NCBI GenBank assembly: GCA_902613795.1
Contig: CACMIP010000002.1
Location: forward strand, 1-64,000
Length of the DNA: 64,000 bases
Reading direction: 5' to 3'
Source: an uncultured OCS116 cluster bacterium
Lineage (GTDB): Bacteria; Pseudomonadota; Alphaproteobacteria; Rhizobiales; TMED25
The notes under the pieces are model-generated. The model was not told where the DNA came from. It did no database searches and saw only the letters and a program-made list of their open reading frames with translations. The position numbers and the translations under genes were made by a program. This document shows positions 6,247-27,791 of this stretch, in pieces (position 1 is the stretch's first letter; every line of letters starts with the position of its first letter).

Positions 6247-6834
6247 TTAATCAGGTGTATCTGCAGTTGACTGAATTGTTTTATTTTCTTTTTGCGCTTC
6301 TCGTTCAACTCTTTTTGATGCTCTCAGAACCAATTTATCAAGTTCTATTTGAGAGCAAAGACCCAGAACAACTGGGTCCTGTGGTTGTATATTTCCAATG
6401 TTCCAATGTGTTCTATTTCTGATAGCCTCAATTGTTGATTTTGTTGTACCAACAAGCCGAATTACCTCGCTATCTTTCAATTCAGAATGATTTCTCACGA
6501 GCCATGCAATTGCAGCGGGTCTGTCTTGTCTCCTTGATAAGGGTGTATATTTTTTTTGTTTTTTTGTTGTAGTCTCAGGTAGCTCAACAATTGTTTGATT
6601 TAGTTTCAGTGTGTGTTCACTATTTTGTTCTGCAGCCTCAAGTTCTGCCCTTGTTAATTCACCAGACATTATGGGATCCATTCCCCTTATCCCTTGAGCA
6701 ACGTCACCATCGGCAATTCCCTTAATTTCGAGAGGGTGTAATCTACAGAATTCAGCTATCTGATCAAAAGTTAAGGCTGTGTTCTCAACTAGCCAAACAG
6801 CTGTTGCTTTTGGCATTAGAGGTGTTTGTACCAT
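6247..6834 (-). CDS. trcR: DUF1013 family regulator (TrcR-like)
   Basis: 195 residues of the DUF1013 family, restricted to Alphaproteobacteria and annotated in reference databases as the cell-cycle transcriptional regulator TrcR. Two helix-turn-helix-like segments are visible: VWLVENTALTFDQIAEFCRL at about residues 13-32 and AIAWLVRNHSELKDSEVIRL in the second half, followed by GTTKSTIEAIRNRTHWN. A basic linker (TTKKQKKYTPLSRRQDR) separates them. Together with ctrA and chpT this suggests that part of the alphaproteobacterial cell-cycle control system is kept. Family identity is firm; the precise role here is inferred. Confidence 0.85.
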   Translation of the reverse strand: MVQTPLMPKATAVWLVENTALTFDQIAEFCRLHPLEIKGIADGDVAQGIRGMDPIMSGELTRAELEAAEQNSEHTLKLNQTIVELPETTTKKQKKYTPLSRRQDRPAAIAWLVRNHSELKDSEVIRLVGTTKSTIEAIRNRTHWNIGNIQPQDPVVLGLCSQIELDKLVLRASKRVEREAQKENKTIQSTADTPD

Positions 6835-8230: not shown

Positions 8231-9715
8231 CTAACTCTCGGTGAGTTTTATTTCAATTCGTCTATTTTTCCTATATGCTATCTCGTTATCTCCGGTTTCA
8301 AGTGGCATAAACTCACCCCTGCCAGTTGCAGCAAGTCTATTAGGCGGAATCCCCGTTTTTATGAGGAAGTCTACGACTGAAATCGCCCTAGCAGCTGATA
8401 ATTCCCAATTTGACTCATATCTGGAATTTCTGATTGGGACTCTATCCGTATGCCCATCGATCCTAAGTATCCAATTTATCTCTTGTGGTATTTCATTTAT
8501 AAGGTCTTGGATAGCTACGGATAGCTTTGCGAGCTGTCTTTGTCCTTCAATTCCTATATTTGCCTCCCCACTTTCGAAAAGTACTTCCGACTGGAATACA
8601 AACCTGTCACCAATAATTTTAATATCATCCCGGTTACCAATTATTTCCTTAAGCTTACCGAAAAATTCAGATCTATATTCGGATAATTCTTTTACTCTTT
8701 GCGCCAATGCAACATTTAATCTCTTCCCCAAGTCTGCTATTCTTGCTTGCTGATCAATATCTCTTTTTTCAGACGCATCAAGAAGAGCTTGTAGTGCCTG
8801 TATTTGCGTCTTTAGCTCAGAAATTTGAATATTTAGAATTTGTACTTCATTGCCAGATGATTTTGCTTTTTGACCTGTAGATAATAAAATCGATTTTAAT
8901 TTTTCAAGTTTTTCACTATTTTCAATTTCTTTTTTTCTAAGATCAATAATTATTTGCTCATTATCTTGAATTACTTTTTCTTGATCTATTGATGCGATGT
9001 CCATATTTAATTTATCTGTTTTTAGCTCAGTCAAGAGGTTATTTTGGGTTTCATTTTTTTTCCTCAAATCGATAATCACCTTTTCTTTATTTTCTAGATC
9101 CAAACCTAAATCATCTACATTATTTTGTAGATTAGCTATTTGAACCTCAAAATTACTAATCTTCTCTGAATTATTTTCGAGTTGTAGGTCTTTTATTTTA
9201 AGTAGTGATGCGAGCTGATTTTTTTCAGATACTAGTTTAATTATTTTTTCACTTCTAAGAGCAGACTCATCTCTTTTTTCTTCGAAAAGCACGATTTTCT
9301 TATCCAACTCATCCTGTAAGATAATTAGTCTGCTATTATAATCGTCTTTAAGAGCAATAATTTCATCTTGTAGAATTATCACATCATCTTTGGCTTTTTC
9401 GAGCTGGATATTCAATCCTTCATTTTTTAATCCAAGATTTATTATATCTTGTTCCAGAACCTGAATTCTGTTAATAAATTCTTCATTTTGGGTTTGCTCC
9501 AGGGACAACAGAAGCGACAGTTCATTAAGTTGATCTTGCAAATCAGATAAAGCATCATCCTTTGATGATATTTCTGTTGATAGAAAAAATTGAGATAAAA
9601 TAAATACTGTCAGTAAAAATATTATGACTAATAAAATAGTAGCCATTGCATCGACAAATCCTGGCCAATAATTTGCTGTATTGCTGTTATTTGGTCGTGT
9701 AGTACTTCTGGGCAT
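8231..9715 (-). CDS. MotB/OmpA-like membrane protein with long coiled coil
   Basis: 494 residues in three parts. One transmembrane helix at about residues 17-45 contains YWPGFVDAMATILL, with an aspartate placed like the proton-carrying Asp of MotB. Residues ~50-345 are a very long Leu/Ile/Glu/Lys heptad-rich coiled coil. Residues ~370-494 are an OmpA-like peptidoglycan-binding domain (DGHTDRVPI, NWELSAARA, GRGEFMP, RKNRRIEIKL). It follows the MotA/ExbB-like gene by 34 bases, and the two are predicted to form a proton-driven complex anchored to peptidoglycan. No flagellar gene is near, so it is not a classical stator. Proteins of this pairing are found beside efp in many alphaproteobacteria, and their role is not established to my knowledge. 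Confidence 0.85.
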   Translation of the reverse strand: MPRSTTRPNNSNTANYWPGFVDAMATILLVIIFLLTVFILSQFFLSTEISSKDDALSDLQDQLNELSLLLSLEQTQNEEFINRIQVLEQDIINLGLKNEGLNIQLEKAKDDVIILQDEIIALKDDYNSRLIILQDELDKKIVLFEEKRDESALRSEKIIKLVSEKNQLASLLKIKDLQLENNSEKISNFEVQIANLQNNVDDLGLDLENKEKVIIDLRKKNETQNNLLTELKTDKLNMDIASIDQEKVIQDNEQIIIDLRKKEIENSEKLEKLKSILLSTGQKAKSSGNEVQILNIQISELKTQIQALQALLDASEKRDIDQQARIADLGKRLNVALAQRVKELSEYRSEFFGKLKEIIGNRDDIKIIGDRFVFQSEVLFESGEANIGIEGQRQLAKLSVAIQDLINEIPQEINWILRIDGHTDRVPIRNSRYESNWELSAARAISVVDFLIKTGIPPNRLAATGRGEFMPLETGDNEIAYRKNRRIEIKLTES

Positions 9716-9749
9716 GGTTAATACTGATTTTTATGGTTAAAAAAAATTT

Positions 9750-10697
9750 CTATTTCTTTTTAACTTCGTCAATTATTTTTTTTTGGAGCTTATTCTGCTC
9801 ACTCAATAGTTTACTCATGTCTTTGTTTTGCTGCTCAATTGAGTTTAATACAGTTTTGAGTTCGCTATGTTTATCTACGCTTTCACTATTTAATGCCTTT
9901 TCTAATTCAACGAGGATTGAGTTCATATCTTTTAAATTTCTGTTAAGGTAGAAATTCATTTTACTGTCAGATCTTTCATCATTAATTTCAGTCACCGTGG
10001 ATAGCCATTCCTCGAGTTCATTGTAAAATCTATTTTGAGCTTGGTTATATAAAAGATCAAAGAAGCCGAGAATTAATGATCCAGAAAGGCCAAATAATGA
10101 AGATGAAAAGGCAACGCCCATTCCAGACAGGGGTTTTTCAAGACCTAATTTTAATTCTTCAAACATTATCGAGGCTTCACCTGTTCCAATTTTAAGTGTA
10201 CCAATAGTTTGCCCAATTGAGTCAACAGTGAGTAATAGACCCCAAAATGTTCCAAGCAAGCCAAGAAAGATCAACAAACCAATCATATATCTTGAGTATT
10301 CTCTTGACTCATCAAGTCTAAAAGAGATTGAGTCCAGTATAGATCTCATTGATGTTGCGGAGAGAGTAATTTCGTATTTATGATCCAGCATCATGGTTGC
10401 CATTGGTGCAAGTAATGATGGCGGTGCGCCAATATCCGCGTGGTAGTCACCATTTTGAAAATTATTAACCCATTTTACCTCGCGGAACAATCTTATTGTC
10501 AACCACAAAATATATATTATTCCAAAGCCAAGAACTGAACTAATAACTGTATTAATAACAGGGTTAGTTTGGAATGCTTTTGTTAGATCCTCTTGAATTA
10601 ATAATATGAAAAATAAGATTAAAAAAATGAAGATTAGCATCCGAAATAAGTAAATTCTTGGATGCGTGAAGTTTCTAGAAACAGGAATATCAGTCAT
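9750..10697 (-). CDS. MotA/TolQ/ExbB-family proton channel protein
   Basis: 315 residues. Two helices lie near the N terminus (about residues 17-36 and 48-68). A cytoplasmic stretch follows, then the two conserved MotA/ExbB helices: YMIGLLIFLGLLGTFWGLLL at about 140-160 and a Gly/Ser-rich helix LSGMGVAFSSSLFGLSGSL at about 190-210. The C-terminal ~90 residues are charged and coiled-coil-like. It is distinct from the TolQ at 23850 and forms a pair with the downstream coiled-coil OmpA protein. Likely an inner-membrane proton channel that powers an envelope process; substrate unknown. Confidence 0.85.
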   Translation of the reverse strand: MTDIPVSRNFTHPRIYLFRMLIFIFLILFFILLIQEDLTKAFQTNPVINTVISSVLGFGIIYILWLTIRLFREVKWVNNFQNGDYHADIGAPPSLLAPMATMMLDHKYEITLSATSMRSILDSISFRLDESREYSRYMIGLLIFLGLLGTFWGLLLTVDSIGQTIGTLKIGTGEASIMFEELKLGLEKPLSGMGVAFSSSLFGLSGSLILGFFDLLYNQAQNRFYNELEEWLSTVTEINDERSDSKMNFYLNRNLKDMNSILVELEKALNSESVDKHSELKTVLNSIEQQNKDMSKLLSEQNKLQKKIIDEVKKK

Positions 10698-10728
10698 CGC
10701 TACAAATTCCCCTAATACTATTCTTGAG

Positions 10729-11514
10729 CTACTCTTTGATTAAATTGTCGTATATTTTTTGGTTGGATACAATAAAATAATTTTTTTGTGACTTTCCTTT
10801 AAAGCTTAGCCTATTAATCTCCCCGCCAGACTCTTCTAAAATTAGTAGGGCTGCTATTAACGAGTGCTTACTTTCATTATGACCAATAAAGCAGTTTAAT
10901 GCGCCATTAGACACCATACATACCTCAAGTGATATTGCGCCCATTTGACGTATTGAATTAACGGAGTTCAAATATTTTAAAAAAATATCATCTATATCGT
11001 TGTTAAAGAGATCGAGGCGTTCATCAATTGATATCATTGCATTATCGGCACTCACTTCATTAGATACGCTCATTCGATTATTATTGTATCTCGCAGAAAT
11101 CCCCTTTTCACCAATAAAAACCTCGTCTGAGATTGGATTATACACGATGCTATTTTGAACAATGCCTTCTTTTATGTGGGCAATTGTTATAGAAAATAAT
11201 GGGATCCCTCGCGTAAAATTCATTTCACCCTCAAGAGCATTAATTATGAAAGAGTTTTTTGGGAAAGAAGCTGTCTCAAAATCATTTTTTGAGATATTAG
11301 TTATTGGAATAAATTCATAACCATTTTTTGAATATTTTGCCTTAAGTTCGTCAATTATGTAAAACTCTACCCTGCTTTTACTTTTTTGAACAAATTCATT
11401 TATCGACTTTTTAGAGTTTTGTAAGTGTTGGAGTTCACCAAAATCACGGCGATATATTTTTGCAACATTTCTGACAATTGCATTGAGAACATTTGTATTT
11501 GGTAGATAGCTCAT
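10729..11514 (-). CDS. Inositol-monophosphatase-like protein lacking metal ligands (probable pseudoenzyme)
   Basis: 261 residues with the length and overall pattern of the IMPase superfamily, but the active site is eroded. Where family members have IIDPLDGTTNF, this protein has IINALEGEMNF (residues 90-100), so the first metal aspartate is Asn92, the second is Glu95, and the catalytic threonine is Glu97. The WDxAAG motif reads KHSLIA before LLILEESGG, losing the third aspartate. No GEE glutamate pair is visible upstream. The fold signature is otherwise kept, so it is not simply decaying; the reading frame is intact. It lies four bases after efp and 31 before the MotA-like gene. Contrast the intact cysQ at 43054. 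Confidence 0.8.
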   Translation of the reverse strand: MSYLPNTNVLNAIVRNVAKIYRRDFGELQHLQNSKKSINEFVQKSKSRVEFYIIDELKAKYSKNGYEFIPITNISKNDFETASFPKNSFIINALEGEMNFTRGIPLFSITIAHIKEGIVQNSIVYNPISDEVFIGEKGISARYNNNRMSVSNEVSADNAMISIDERLDLFNNDIDDIFLKYLNSVNSIRQMGAISLEVCMVSNGALNCFIGHNESKHSLIAALLILEESGGEINRLSFKGKSQKNYFIVSNQKIYDNLIKE

Positions 11515-11518
11515 TAAA

Positions 11519-12082
11519 TTAGTCAGCCCGCTTTACATAAGTCATTTCATTCGTATCAACTATGATTATGTCATCGTTATTAATGAAAGGTGGTACTGTA
11601 ACTCTTATATCATTTTCTAAAATTGCTGGCTTCGATGATGAAGCTGCAGTCTGACCTTTGATGGAGGGCTCCGTATTAATTACTTTTAACGAGACTGTTT
11701 CGGGTAAAATAACACTTACTGGGCTGCCCTCATATAGCTCAACCTCAACAATCATGCCTTCTTTTAGGAATGATTTTTTTTCATCTAATATACTCTGATT
11801 TACTGATATTTGTTCGTATGTATTACTATTCATAAATATAAGCTCACTATCACTTGAGTATAAAAATTGATAGCTTTCGGAGTCTATTCTTACTCTCTCA
11901 ACTATCTCATCTGCGCGGAATCTCTCATTCAACTTTGTGTTATCCATTATAGATTTCATCTCTACCTGATTAAATGCACCGCCCTTACCAGGTTTCACAG
12001 CTTGCGTTTTAGTGACAACAAATAGTGATCCCTTATGTTCCAATACGTTACCTATCTTAATTTGATTTCCGTTTATTTTCAT
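11519..12082 (-). CDS. efp: Elongation factor P
   Basis: 187 residues, the three-beta-barrel translation factor that relieves ribosome stalling at polyproline stretches. The modification loop KPGKGGAF places the target lysine at residue 33, which fits the EpmAB-type beta-lysylation class; epmA and epmB are not in this window. The C-terminal VTVPPFINNDDIIIVDTN is the standard ending. It heads the group efp, IMPase-like, MotA-like and MotB-like genes, separated from the first of these by four bases. Confidence 0.97.
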   Translation of the reverse strand: MKINGNQIKIGNVLEHKGSLFVVTKTQAVKPGKGGAFNQVEMKSIMDNTKLNERFRADEIVERVRIDSESYQFLYSSDSELIFMNSNTYEQISVNQSILDEKKSFLKEGMIVEVELYEGSPVSVILPETVSLKVINTEPSIKGQTAASSSKPAILENDIRVTVPPFINNDDIIIVDTNEMTYVKRAD

Positions 12083-12141: not shown

Positions 12142-13101
12142 TTATTTCATAAACTTTGGCATACGTAAATAAGTAATGCTGTAATCATTCATACGTGGTC
12201 TAAAACTTTCAAATTTGTCAACTGCAGCTTTCCTATGACTAGAGGATAATGTACTCATATTCATATCCAATTCAACATCAGTTACGCCAAGTTGCTTTGC
12301 TAACAAATAATATTCATACGCCTTAACATCGTTTTTTACTGTTCCAATACCATAATAATACATGGTCGCTAACTGTTGTAATGCTGGTGGATAAGCCTTT
12401 TGTGCTGCTCTTTCAAGCCATATAATAGCAATTTTTTCATCTTTCTTAATTCCAATCTCATTTAAAATCATCATTGCATAATCATATTCGGCTTCTGTGT
12501 AACCTTGGTCAGCAAATTCAAACATCATTAGAGCAGCATTTTTTTTATCAATTTTTGTTCCAATACCATTCAGCTTATATTCAATGAGAGAATACTTTGC
12601 TAACTCAATTTCTTTACTGGCATCAGTCATATATTCATAAGCCACTGACTCATTAGGTGGAACATTTATTCCATACCTATGAAAAATTGAGAGATAATAT
12701 TTTGCGTGAGATGATAAAAATTTATCACTGCTATTTTTCAATTCATAAAAATAATTATATGATTTTATGTAGTCAATTTTATTGTGAAAAAGTACTTCTG
12801 CTATTTCAAACTTTGAATTTTGATCACCTTTTTTAATGGACTCTTCATACCATTCGTTCGCAGAATCGATGTCTCCATTTCTTATAAATTTTTTTGCTAA
12901 CCAATAAGCCCACTTTTGTTCGCCATGAGTATTGTATAACTCTATTGCTTCATAGATTTCATTATTATTTAACAATGTTTTGAATTTATCATTTGGGATA
13001 TCAGCAAATACTGAAGTAAAACATATAAGAAAAGCACCGAGTATCAGGAAGATCTTTTTTGAGTCTAATACTCTGTTTATTTTTCTAAATGTTCTGACCA
13101 T
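12142..13101 (-). CDS. Secreted Sel1-repeat (TPR-like) protein
   Basis: 319 residues. A long N-terminal basic stretch precedes the hydrophobic signal KIFLILGAFLICFTSVFA, with likely cleavage after the final Ala (about residue 33). Sel1-like repeats follow, clearest as AEYDYAMMILNEIG and ALQQLATMYYYGIGTVKND. Such proteins act as scaffolds in the periplasm or at the membrane. The start overlaps the 3' end of fba by 25 bases, and no internal ATG lies before the signal, so the overlap is probably real. Specific function not recognised. Confidence 0.78.
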   Translation of the reverse strand: MVRTFRKINRVLDSKKIFLILGAFLICFTSVFADIPNDKFKTLLNNNEIYEAIELYNTHGEQKWAYWLAKKFIRNGDIDSANEWYEESIKKGDQNSKFEIAEVLFHNKIDYIKSYNYFYELKNSSDKFLSSHAKYYLSIFHRYGINVPPNESVAYEYMTDASKEIELAKYSLIEYKLNGIGTKIDKKNAALMMFEFADQGYTEAEYDYAMMILNEIGIKKDEKIAIIWLERAAQKAYPPALQQLATMYYYGIGTVKNDVKAYEYYLLAKQLGVTDVELDMNMSTLSSSHRKAAVDKFESFRPRMNDYSITYLRMPKFMK

Positions 13102-23849: not shown

Positions 23850-24587
23850 ATGGATGAATCACTAGTCACAACTGACCTCAGTTTGATGGGCCTCTTTTCC
23901 GAGGCAGACCTGGTTGTAAAATTGGTTATGCTCGGACTTATGATCGCCTCTGTAATCTCGTGGGCAATTATATTTGAGAAATTAATTTTAATTAAATTAG
24001 TAAACCGTAATGCTATAAAATTTTATCGAGATTTTTGGAGCAGCAATATAAATGATATCGATGCCGCTTATCGGAATTCAAGAAATAACCCAATGGCTAA
24101 AATATTCAATGCAGGAATAAAGGAATGGAATACGACTTTCAAAATACATAAGAATATGTCGATTGATGGGGTCAAAGGAAGAATTGAGAAGGCCATGAAT
24201 GTACAGATGAACATAGAATTAGATAAACTTGAAAAGAAATTATTATTTCTGGCTTCTGTAGGTTCAACAGCCCCTTTCATTGGTCTTTTTGGAACGGTAT
24301 ATGGGATAATGAATAGTTTTTCAGCAATTGCTACCTCAAAAAGCACGAACCTTACTGTTGTAGCCCCTGGAATTGCGGAGGCGCTATTCGCAACAGCCAT
24401 TGGGTTATTTGCAGCCATACCAGCTGTTATGTTTTATAATAAAATATCAAGCGATATTGCGCGTGTGACTTCGAATCTTGAAAATTTTAGTGATGAATTT
24501 ATCAACTACTTTAGTCGTCAAATTGATGCTCAAATGGTAGCTGATGATGTTGATGACAACTACCAAACTGATGAAGACGAGTTTTAA
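23850..24587 (+). CDS. tolQ: Tol-Pal system proton channel TolQ
   Basis: 245 residues. One N-terminal helix at about residues 22-44 (VVKLVMLGLMIASVISWAI) and two helices in the second half: LASVGSTAPFIGLFGTVYGI and GIAEALFATAIGLFAAIPAV, the hallmarks of TolQ/ExbB. With TolR it uses the proton gradient to drive TolA, constricting the outer membrane at division. It starts the five-gene tolQRAB-pal set. The best GAGG ribosome site lies 14 bases upstream of the ATG, farther than usual. Confidence 0.95.
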   Translation: MDESLVTTDLSLMGLFSEADLVVKLVMLGLMIASVISWAIIFEKLILIKLVNRNAIKFYRDFWSSNINDIDAAYRNSRNNPMAKIFNAGIKEWNTTFKIHKNMSIDGVKGRIEKAMNVQMNIELDKLEKKLLFLASVGSTAPFIGLFGTVYGIMNSFSAIATSKSTNLTVVAPGIAEALFATAIGLFAAIPAVMFYNKISSDIARVTSNLENFSDEFINYFSRQIDAQMVADDVDDNYQTDEDEF

Positions 24588-24601
24588 GATTTTGCAAAAT
24601 A

Positions 24602-25036
24602 ATGGCAACAAATATAAAAACATTACCAAATAATAGAAGAAGAAGCAGAAAGAATAACCCAATTTCTGATATTAATGTAACACCCCTTGTTGATGTCATG
24701 CTCGTACTACTGATCGTTTTTATGGTAACTGCACCATTACTAACAGTTGGCGTTCCAATTGAGCTTCCAAAAACTGCGGCAAAGCAAATGACTGATGACA
24801 ATGAGCCTTTAACTATCACAATTGACAAGGACAGCAAAATTTATATTCAAGAAATGGAGATAGATTTTGATGACTTAACCGAAAAACTTGAGGCGATAGG
24901 GCAGAGTAACTTTGATCAAAAAATTTATATCAATGGTGATAAAGATATTAGTTATGAAGTCTTAATGAAAGTAATGGCTAAGATTAGTTCTTCCGGCTAT
25001 ACATCAATCGGATTAGTTACCGATATAGAGTCTTAA
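24602..25036 (+). CDS. tolR: Tol-Pal system protein TolR
   Basis: 144 residues. The single membrane helix contains NVTPLVDVMLVLLIVFMV with the proton-carrying aspartate at residue 30, followed by VGVPIELPKT and a periplasmic ExbD/TolR domain. It pairs with TolQ, 14 bases upstream, and precedes TolA by one base. Confidence 0.96.
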   Translation: MATNIKTLPNNRRRSRKNNPISDINVTPLVDVMLVLLIVFMVTAPLLTVGVPIELPKTAAKQMTDDNEPLTITIDKDSKIYIQEMEIDFDDLTEKLEAIGQSNFDQKIYINGDKDISYEVLMKVMAKISSSGYTSIGLVTDIES

Positions 25037-25037
25037 T

Positions 25038-25868
25038 ATGTTAGCCAAACCAATATCTATATCAGTTATATTACATCTACTATTTGTTATAATTATAATA
25101 ACAGGTCTGCCATCATTCGATAGCCTTGAAGAGAGCCCAATGTCCATTGTTGAAATCGAGCTTATTAATAGTCTTCCAGTAATTACACAAGAAATTATAG
25201 AGGATGACACTAAAGAAGAGTCCTCATCCAATAAAAAAAAATATAGTGCGACACCCAACGTTAAACCATCTATGAGGAGTGAAGAGTCAAAAAATATGAG
25301 TATACTTGAAAATGAGGAGCTAATTGAGAAAACTACTAACGCTGAACAGCAAGAAGATGAAAATATCATGGAGTTTTTTTCTACACCCGAAATTAAGCCT
25401 GAATTGAACAAAATTAATGACAAATTATTAACTAATTTGGATTACGATGAAAATAAGAAGGAAACAGATAAAGTCACAGCGCTGCTCGATAAATTTCCTG
25501 ATGAGAGAGATGTTGGGGAAATGATTGAAAACAAACCACAAGAGAAAAATTTAACGTCAGATAATATTATTACGGCGGGTGAGATATCAAATATGCGAAG
25601 TCAAATAGAGATGTGCTGGAATCCACCTGTGGGAGTGCGCGGTGCTGCAAGCCAAAGAGTACAAGTGATCATTGCGCTCAATAAAGATGGTACAATATCG
25701 AATGTAGAGCCTGTCACAAGAGACTTAAAAGGAAGCAGGGAAGTGGCAATTGGTGCTGCAGTAAGAGCTGTGTTGAGCTGCGCACCATATGAGTTTCCAA
25801 TTGAAAAATATGAATTATGGAAAGAGATAAAGTTTACTTTTGATCCAAGAAATATGTTGGGTGGATAA
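25038..25868 (+). CDS. tolA: TolA/TonB-like energy transducer
   Basis: 276 residues. An N-terminal helix ([16 protein letters not shown], about residues 7-22) anchors it. The middle ~150 residues are acidic and low-complexity, without the long Ala/Lys helix of E. coli TolA. The C-terminal domain, from about residue 180, reads [17 protein letters not shown] and [16 protein letters not shown], typical of the TolA/TonB C-terminal fold. It is shorter than enterobacterial TolA but its place between tolR and tolB settles the call. Confidence 0.85.
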
Positions 25869-25869
25869 T

Positions 25870-27183
25870 ATGATAAATCGAATGCACAGACTCTTCTTCT
25901 CATTATTTTTCTTACTATTTTATTCAACTGTCTCACAGGGCGCCCTTGAAATAGATGTCACAGAGGGAAACCTCAGACCAATGCCGATTGCAATAACCAC
26001 GGTTATTGATAAACAAAATGAGCAGCTTGGTCTTGGTCTGGATATAACAAAAGTGATTGCTAGTGATCTTGGTAGTTCTGGTTTATTTTATCCTATAAAT
26101 CCAAAAGCATTCCTTGATGAAGTTAACTCTGTGGATCGGAGTCCCAATTTTAATTCATGGCGAGTAGTTAATGCTGAGGCTTTATTCACCGCTGAGCTAA
26201 TTTATGACAATGAAAGATACAGAATAAACTACAAGCTCTGGGATACTTTCTCAGAGAAGTCCCTCGAAGCTAATTATTTAGTTTTTTCAAAAAATAAATG
26301 GAGAAACGTGGCGCACATGATTGCTGATACAATTTATACACGCCTGACGGATGAGAAGGGTTATTTTGACACACAAATTGCCTTTATTGCGGAGAGTGGG
26401 CCCAAGACGGAAAGAATAAAAAGACTGGCAATAATGGATCAGGATGGTCAAAATCCCGTATTATTGACATCAGGTAAAGACCTTGTATTGACTCCTAGAT
26501 TCAGTCCAAACGGTAAAGAGCTTGTATATTTGTCATATAGAAATGGTCAACCTCAGGTATATATTTATGATATTCAATCAAAACAAACGTATGTGGTTGG
26601 AACATTTCCTGGCATAACATTTGCCCCTAGATTCTCCCCTGACGGAAAAAAAATCATCATGAGCTTACAAGAGGGAGTAGGATCGAACTTATTTGAGATG
26701 GATTTGAGCAATTTTGATAGAAAGAGGTTAACTAATACGTCTGATATCAACACAGCTCCCAGCTACTCGCCTGACTCAAGTAATATTGTATTTGAGTCAG
26801 ATAAGTCAGGCACGCAGCAGTTATATGTGATGGATGCTAATGGAAATAATGTAAGAAGAATTAGCTTTGGAACCGGAAGTTACTCCACACCTGTTTGGTC
26901 TCCAAGAGGTGATTACATTGCATTTACAAAGATTTCTAAGGGTAGATTTATGATTGGTGTGATGTTTACAGATGGAAGTGGTGAGAGGATCATCACAGAT
27001 GGCTTCCACAATGAAGGCCCCACATGGGCTCCAAACGGAAGAGTTTTAATGTTTTTTCGTGAGTCGCCAGGAGAAGGTGGCGGGCCAATGATTTATTCTG
27101 TTGATATCACAGGATATAATGAGAGAAAAATTGACACACCAGGCTATGCATCTGACCCATCATGGTCCGCATTAATGAATTAA
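25870..27183 (+). CDS. tolB: Tol-Pal system beta-propeller TolB
   Basis: 437 residues. The frame is open from 25840, but the ATG at 25870 gives a proper signal peptide ([18 protein letters not shown], cleavage likely before ALEIDV) and lies just after the tolA stop. An N-terminal domain is followed by five PD40/WD40-like blades ([51 protein letters not shown] and others). This periplasmic protein binds Pal and TolA. Confidence 0.95.
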
Positions 27184-27281
27184 AATATCTGATTTACATT
27201 TTTTTTTAAACATTACATCATTTGTTAACATTTACATGATAACTTTAGGGATCATTACTATTTTTAAAGAGGAAATTAACA

Positions 27282-27791
27282 ATGGTATATAAAAAAGCAT
27301 TTAATCTTTCCGTGACTTTTTTATTAATCTTCATCCTTACGGGCTGTTCATCCACACGAAAAAACGTTGAACAGATCTTATTCGGAGGAGGAAATAATAA
27401 TGAAGCTGAAATAGTCTCAAATGCTATTCCTGGATCTTCCCAAGACTTCACAGTAAATGTTGGAGACCGTGTATTTTTTGCAACAAATTCAACAAGTTTA
27501 GATGATGATGCAAAAGCGATACTAGAAAGGCAAGCTTCTTGGTTAGAATTATATCCTGAAATTAGTATCATTGTTGAAGGACACGCCGATGAGAGGGGTA
27601 CACGAGAGTACAATATTGCGCTTAGCGCCAAAAGAGCTGATATTGCTGTAGCATACCTCGAAAGTCTTGGTATAGCCAGTGATAGAGTCGAAACGGTTCC
27701 TTATGGAAAAGAGAGACCAGTCGCTGCCTGCTCATCTGAAGCTTGTTGGTCACAAAACAGACGAGCTGTGTCTGTAGTCAACATTGAGTAA
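27282..27791 (+). CDS. pal: Peptidoglycan-associated lipoprotein Pal
   Basis: 169 residues. A lipoprotein signal ends in LTGC, with the lipidated cysteine at residue 22, and an OmpA-like peptidoglycan-binding domain follows (VEGHADERGTREYNIALSAK, then QNRRAVSV). A good GAGGAAA ribosome site precedes the ATG. It anchors the outer membrane to the wall as the partner of TolB. The cpoB (ybgF) gene that usually follows is absent; tilS comes next after 106 bases. Confidence 0.96.
   Translation: MVYKKAFNLSVTFLLIFILTGCSSTRKNVEQILFGGGNNNEAEIVSNAIPGSSQDFTVNVGDRVFFATNSTSLDDDAKAILERQASWLELYPEISIIVEGHADERGTREYNIALSAKRADIAVAYLESLGIASDRVETVPYGKERPVAACSSEACWSQNRRAVSVVNIE

Follow-up and report, generated by a model that had tools for sequence, protein, structure and literature searches.

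The closest described systems to the gene pair analysed here are ZorAB of the Zorya system, TolQR/ExbBD, and the flagellar stator MotAB. Flagellar stators (FIT group) carry a torque interface of at least four helices between TM2 and TM3 of their A subunit (PMC12505986). The pair consists of a MotA/ExbB-fold channel subunit (A) and a MotB-like partner (B). With TolQR/ExbBD, it has in common the channel fold, the logic of an ion motor, and the motifs in helices 3 and 4, but its B subunit is a long rod with an OmpA domain and not of the short TolR/ExbD type, and a separate TolQRAB-Pal system is encoded in the same window (the whole stretch of 64,000 nucleotides that was analysed). B resembles its flagellar counterpart in the membrane aspartate and the MotB/MotS-like OmpA domain, whereas A is devoid of the torque interface and matches no MotA model, and the genome lacks flagella. 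The likeness to ZorAB comprises both subunits, because the family of A is recognized by ZorA models and B combines a membrane aspartate with an OmpA wall-binding domain; the pair differs from ZorAB in the missing ZorC, ZorD, and ZorE, the short tail of A, the long coil in B, the conserved core locus, and a score below the ZorA cut-off. B is also a member (378.2 bits; cut-off 305) of the NCBIfam family NF006543 (PRK09039, “peptidoglycan -binding protein”), which is known by name only. Judging by their titles, the papers in the searched literature that carry the identifier do not deal with the function of this family. The sequence-only reading knew of no assigned role for the pair, and no published function or paper was found in the literature searched.

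The window stems from an uncultured marine bacterium of the OCS116 cluster, whose genome (1.32 Mb in 10 contigs) is 97% complete. The order of genes on the minus strand is pgk, fructose-bisphosphate aldolase, a Sel1-repeat protein (12142..13101), elongation factor P (efp, 11519..12082), an IMPase-fold protein (10729..11514; 261 aa), A (9750..10697; 315 aa), B (8231..9715; 494 aa), and bL31; the names pgk, aldolase, and bL31 were assigned from the sequence. The intergenic gaps from the Sel1 gene to that of B amount to 59, 4, 31, and 34 nt. The earlier placement of three genes close behind efp is therefore accurate, as are their coordinates and domain calls. Efp is a conserved operon neighbor, and the Sel1-repeat protein is a conserved upstream neighbor in the order to which the window belongs.

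Subunit A barely exceeds the cut-off of Pfam family MotA_ExbB (PF01618; 23.9 bits against 22.9), and TolQ is the only other match to this family in the entire genome. Its AlphaFold model (pLDDT 85) shows four long helices (residues 14–33, 46–81, 114–167, and 175–235), one short helix (97–105) in the loop between TM2 and TM3, and a C-terminal helical tail (247–314) that is longer in most other members. A Foldseek search with this model was led by ExbB (2e-3), ZorA (3e-3), and TolQ, with flagellar MotA only at rank 45 (0.07); the top fold match (ExbB/ZorA) is weak (E = 2e-3, TM ~0.4). The Pfam and fold searches agree with the original call of a MotA/ExbB-type channel. Residues G149, T150, F151, and S200 are invariant in the aligned members.

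A match to characterized flagellar MotAB or TolQR/ExbBD had been named as evidence that would speak against a separate system. The NCBIfam models of TolQ, ExbB, and MotA match none of the 52 aligned members of the A family, and the probabilities of alignment between the A profile and single TolQ, ExbB, and MotA sequences are low (14–48%); a PDB sequence search with the same profile returned coiled coils only. The ZorA models of PADLOC match all 52 members (best 1e-18); among the E. coli controls, no ZorA model recognizes MotA or ExbB, and TolQ reaches only 0.005. Against the NCBIfam model of ZorA, A scores 21.6 bits and does not reach the curated cut-off of 100, and neither ZorC and ZorD nor ZorE are encoded beside the locus, whose neighbors are efp, the IMPase fold, Sel1, bL31, and the cell-cycle regulator TrcR (6247–6834; PF06242); the same is true of the upstream genes of relatives. 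Because of the low score and the missing effectors, membership in a Zorya system was rejected, and ZorA was retained as the nearest relative of A. B matches the model of ZorB3 (2.7e-20). The pair is, by sequence, closer to ZorA/ZorB than to MotAB.

Subunit B carries a membrane helix with the motif WPGFVDA, in which Asp22 is invariant (40 sequences), followed by a long coiled coil and an OmpA-type peptidoglycan-binding domain (residues ~372–491; PF00691, 55.8 bits). This domain matches the wall-binding domains of MotS and MotB (1e-26) and has retained D424 and R443. AlphaFold predicts helices at 18–148, 156–241, and 251–359 and then the OmpA fold, with ~315 helical residues outside the membrane, which bears out the initial description of a MotB-like protein with a membrane aspartate, a long coiled coil, and an OmpA domain. 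If they formed one straight helix, these residues would measure ~47 nm and exceed the usual periplasm. The rod of B in the window has two weak heptad zones (~106–150 and 211–245), and helix breaks of low confidence in the AlphaFold model (149–155 and 242–250) are located near the end of each.

The rod length, counted in residues between the WPG motif of the membrane helix and the GDRF motif in the wall domain, varies between 163 and 636, with 201 as the commonest value. Relative to 201, the lengths fall at 0 mod 7 in 54 of 82 loci, at 3 or 4 in 23, and elsewhere in 5 (chi-square p = 2e-38), a figure that is inflated by related sequences; among the 51 distinct lengths, the remainder is 0 in 28 cases and 3 or 4 in 18, and the control moduli 4, 5, 6, and 8–11 give no signal (p > 0.2). 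Lengths at 3 or 4 mod 7 are as would arise from stammers, stutters, or hendecads. Reference members hold a single heptad register over ~150 residues in one case and 250 residues in another. The number of heptads, inspected for the parity preference of a hairpin rod, shows none (16 even and 16 odd distinct lengths), so single heptads are added; this agrees with a parallel rod but still allows bends. The heptad-stepped insertions and deletions show that the coiled-coil rod is real; they are not in themselves evidence of torque transmission, and whole-heptad indels are favored by any coiled coil.

Among 192 alphaproteobacterial genomes, A is present in 131 and B in 130; both occur together in 127, B alone in 3, A alone in 4, and neither in 58 (p = 2e-40), which leaves about a third of the sampled genomes without the pair. 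In a sample of 120 neighborhoods (nearly one per family), the gene of A lies directly upstream of that of B in 102 of 114 loci. Where at least 6 kb of upstream sequence were available (96 loci), the motor genes are preceded by an IMPase gene in 76 cases and by efp in 70. The recurrence near efp in other Alphaproteobacteria, as stated in the sequence-only reading, thus proved true, the linkage to the IMPase gene is conserved, and the association of the locus is confirmed beyond chance. The same order recurs among the best 80 named loci, a set biased to close relatives, with representatives of Rhizobiales, Rhodospirillales, Kiloniellales, Azospirillum, Acetobacteraceae, and SAR116.

Several reduced genomes (0.7–1.4 Mb) have kept both A and B although the genes are unlinked; the two are present but non-adjacent at seven loci from seven, mostly reduced, genomes, and the pair is retained even in sampled genomes of 0.7–1.0 Mb. 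That unlinked genes persist in reduced genomes speaks for retention of the pair by virtue of its function and not by synteny alone. Within the genus, A and efp are under equal constraint (dN/dS of 0.064 and 0.063, respectively). Beyond Alphaproteobacteria, full-length B occurs in few genomes of a phylum sample, five of them with more than 390 bits, and these PRK09039 proteins are possibly the result of transfers.

The absence of a flagellar link, already suspected from the window, is evident also at the genome level. The genome does not encode FlhA, and B and FlhA are distributed independently among the 192 genomes (both in 80, B only in 50, FlhA only in 34, neither in 28; p = 0.43). A role as flagellar stator was rejected because FlhA is missing here and in 50 of the 130 B-positive genomes and because A has a single short helix at the position of the torque interface. 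That the window has its own TolQR, which makes the motor a second channel pair, is corroborated by a complete tolQ-tolR-tolA-tolB-pal cluster (23850–27791) ~15 kb from the motor genes. TolQ is present in 183 of the 192 genomes. The distance between Tol-Pal and the motor is 7.7–42 kb in 48 of the 56 genomes that have both on one contig, which identifies the motor as a chromosomal neighbor of Tol-Pal.

The IMPase-fold protein (PF00459; 78.6 bits, cut-off 27) has the fold of SuhB/inositol monophosphatase, and its orthology is indicated by position and sequence; its best match in the PDB is the SuhB structure 3LUZ from Bartonella. The difference lies in the metal ligands, which are lost in the family of the window: the usual sites E-E, DPLDGT, and WD are replaced by S-K, NALEGE, and KH, so that the description as a phosphatase fold without metal ligands holds for all three. 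The ligands are lost in 14 of 14 genomes of the same genus and family but retained in all other sampled members of the order; most alphaproteobacteria possess an intact IMPase of the SuhB type. Partial or full losses are found also in SAR116 (two loci) and at three further loci, and the loss in other marine lineages at the same locus looks like a repeated formation of pseudoenzymes. The dN/dS of 0.13 within the genus indicates purifying selection and documents that the pseudoenzyme is maintained; a decaying IMPase pseudogene was rejected on the same ground and because the relatives searched have no in-gene stop codons.

In E. coli, SuhB is an rRNA transcription factor (PMC4807359; PMC6614801), and the growth defect of suhB mutants is unlinked to the loss of IMPase activity (PMC4807359). 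Together with the match to 3LUZ and the presence of CysQ as the only other IMPase-family gene in the genome, this makes a SuhB scaffold the simplest reading of the pseudo-IMPase, and probably the right one. The best-known partner of SuhB is the C-terminal repeat of NusA. A search for this AR repeat (TIGR01954) gave no match in the whole genome, and binding of the protein to the NusA repeat is therefore not supported. SuhB enters the complex also without AR2 (PMC6614801); the missing repeat weakens the scaffold reading but is not decisive.

At 59 loci, the genes of the IMPase and A are separated by that of an exported protein that comprises the motif V.VDL..LD, a Pro-rich linker (14% Pro), and an OmpA domain, which exceeded the Pfam cut-off in all six cases tested. 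This protein is present in most lineages other than that of the window, where a search for it or for another third component in the genome yielded only a weak match to Pal (E 0.07). In 13 of 16 genomes that encode the Pro-rich protein but no motor, its gene is likewise found behind that of the IMPase, so that efp, IMPase, and OmpA protein form the core of the operon and the motor is a frequent, non-essential extension. Runs of PPP occur in 37 of the 59 Pro-rich OmpA proteins but in only 1 of 121 MotB-like ORFs, with efp nearby. EF-P relieves polyproline stalling, and a translational link between efp and the PPP-rich protein is possible.

It is very probable that A and B constitute an ion-driven motor of this superfamily. 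That this motor has a housekeeping function in the envelope and acts on the wall, separately from flagella and Tol-Pal, is given a probability of about 0.5; synteny can be inherited without function. A and B would form a 5:2-type motor in the inner membrane of alphaproteobacteria, in which ions would probably move between Asp22 in the dimer of B and polar residues in helices 3 and 4 of A, and the ion flow would drive a rotation of A relative to B. Along its long coiled coil and via the OmpA domain, B would then convey movement or anchorage to the peptidoglycan, and the outcome might be a support of wall growth or a coordination of outer membrane and wall. The IMPase-like neighbor would be the SuhB of this genome, which has lost catalysis and may be kept as a scaffold in the cytoplasm, presumably for gene expression, without being part of the motor.

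The kinship with ZorA and ZorB, the nearest relatives in sequence, would also accommodate an envelope sensor that works inwards in a Zorya-like manner, with B gripping or sensing the peptidoglycan, the ion flow turning the A ring, and the C-terminal tail of A signaling to a cytoplasmic partner. We consider this unlikely, though deserving of some weight: the tail (247–314) is longer in most other members, but it is short compared with that of ZorA, no gene for ZorC, ZorD, ZorE, or another effector adjoins the locus, and the constraint on length and phase resides in the periplasmic subunit. A static wall tether that performs no ion-driven work could likewise consist of a long rod with a wall-binding domain; it is improbable in view of the invariant membrane aspartate, the conserved motif in the channel helices of A, and the near-perfect co-occurrence of A and B. 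Even less credit is due to a flagellar stator or a remnant of Zorya defence, despite the distant homology to both, because 50 of the 130 B-positive genomes lack flagella, the one short helix of A contrasts with the torque interface of four to five helices in flagellar MotA, and a core locus that is conserved in two thirds of the genomes does not resemble a defence island.

The pseudo-IMPase might also belong to the motor as a genuine subunit or regulate it, with all three genes encoding one machine, as the tight spacing (4 and 31 nt) and the upstream IMPase gene in 76 of 96 loci would allow. This, too, has a low probability, since the protein has a cytoplasmic enzyme fold without a membrane element, is catalytic in most lineages, and remains with efp in genomes that lack the motor. 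The claim that a metal-free phosphatase belongs to a three-protein module was not upheld: almost every other lineage has the full set of ligands, the efp–IMPase pair persists where the motor is missing, and a further IMPase of the SuhB type is absent from the genome. An independent role as SuhB is therefore likelier than one as a motor part.

If the housekeeping motor works on the wall, it would be a further component of envelope growth in a class to which rhizobia and major groups of marine bacteria belong. The apparently ion-driven pair is kept by most sampled alphaproteobacteria, often beside the Pro-rich wall-binding protein and near Tol-Pal, and its kinship with ZorAB makes it a candidate housekeeping source of the phage-defence motor. 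A far-reaching and quite speculative extension would regard the pair as a third class of alphaproteobacterial envelope motor, a housekeeping ZorAB type whose heptad-stepped periplasmic drive shaft keeps the helix phase from the membrane to the wall domain and from which the Zorya defence motors arose. The conversion of SuhB to a pseudoenzyme offers a natural means of telling which functions of SuhB depend on catalysis.

In Rhizobium, the locus is directly preceded by a Sel1 gene, which in turn follows a gene of the thiE type. Going by the gene numbering of Sinorhizobium meliloti, the Sel1 gene of the locus might conceivably be rgsF, and the Sel1-repeat protein upstream of efp in the window may be the counterpart of its product. 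RgsF (SMc03995) is a periplasmic Sel1 protein and a polar growth factor of S. meliloti; a knockout was unobtainable, its depletion rounds the cells, and it was recovered, along with TolQ and TolR, in a pull-down with RgsA (PMC7327166). In a dozen of the best 80 named loci, the gene of TrcR is located less than 10 kb from the motor.
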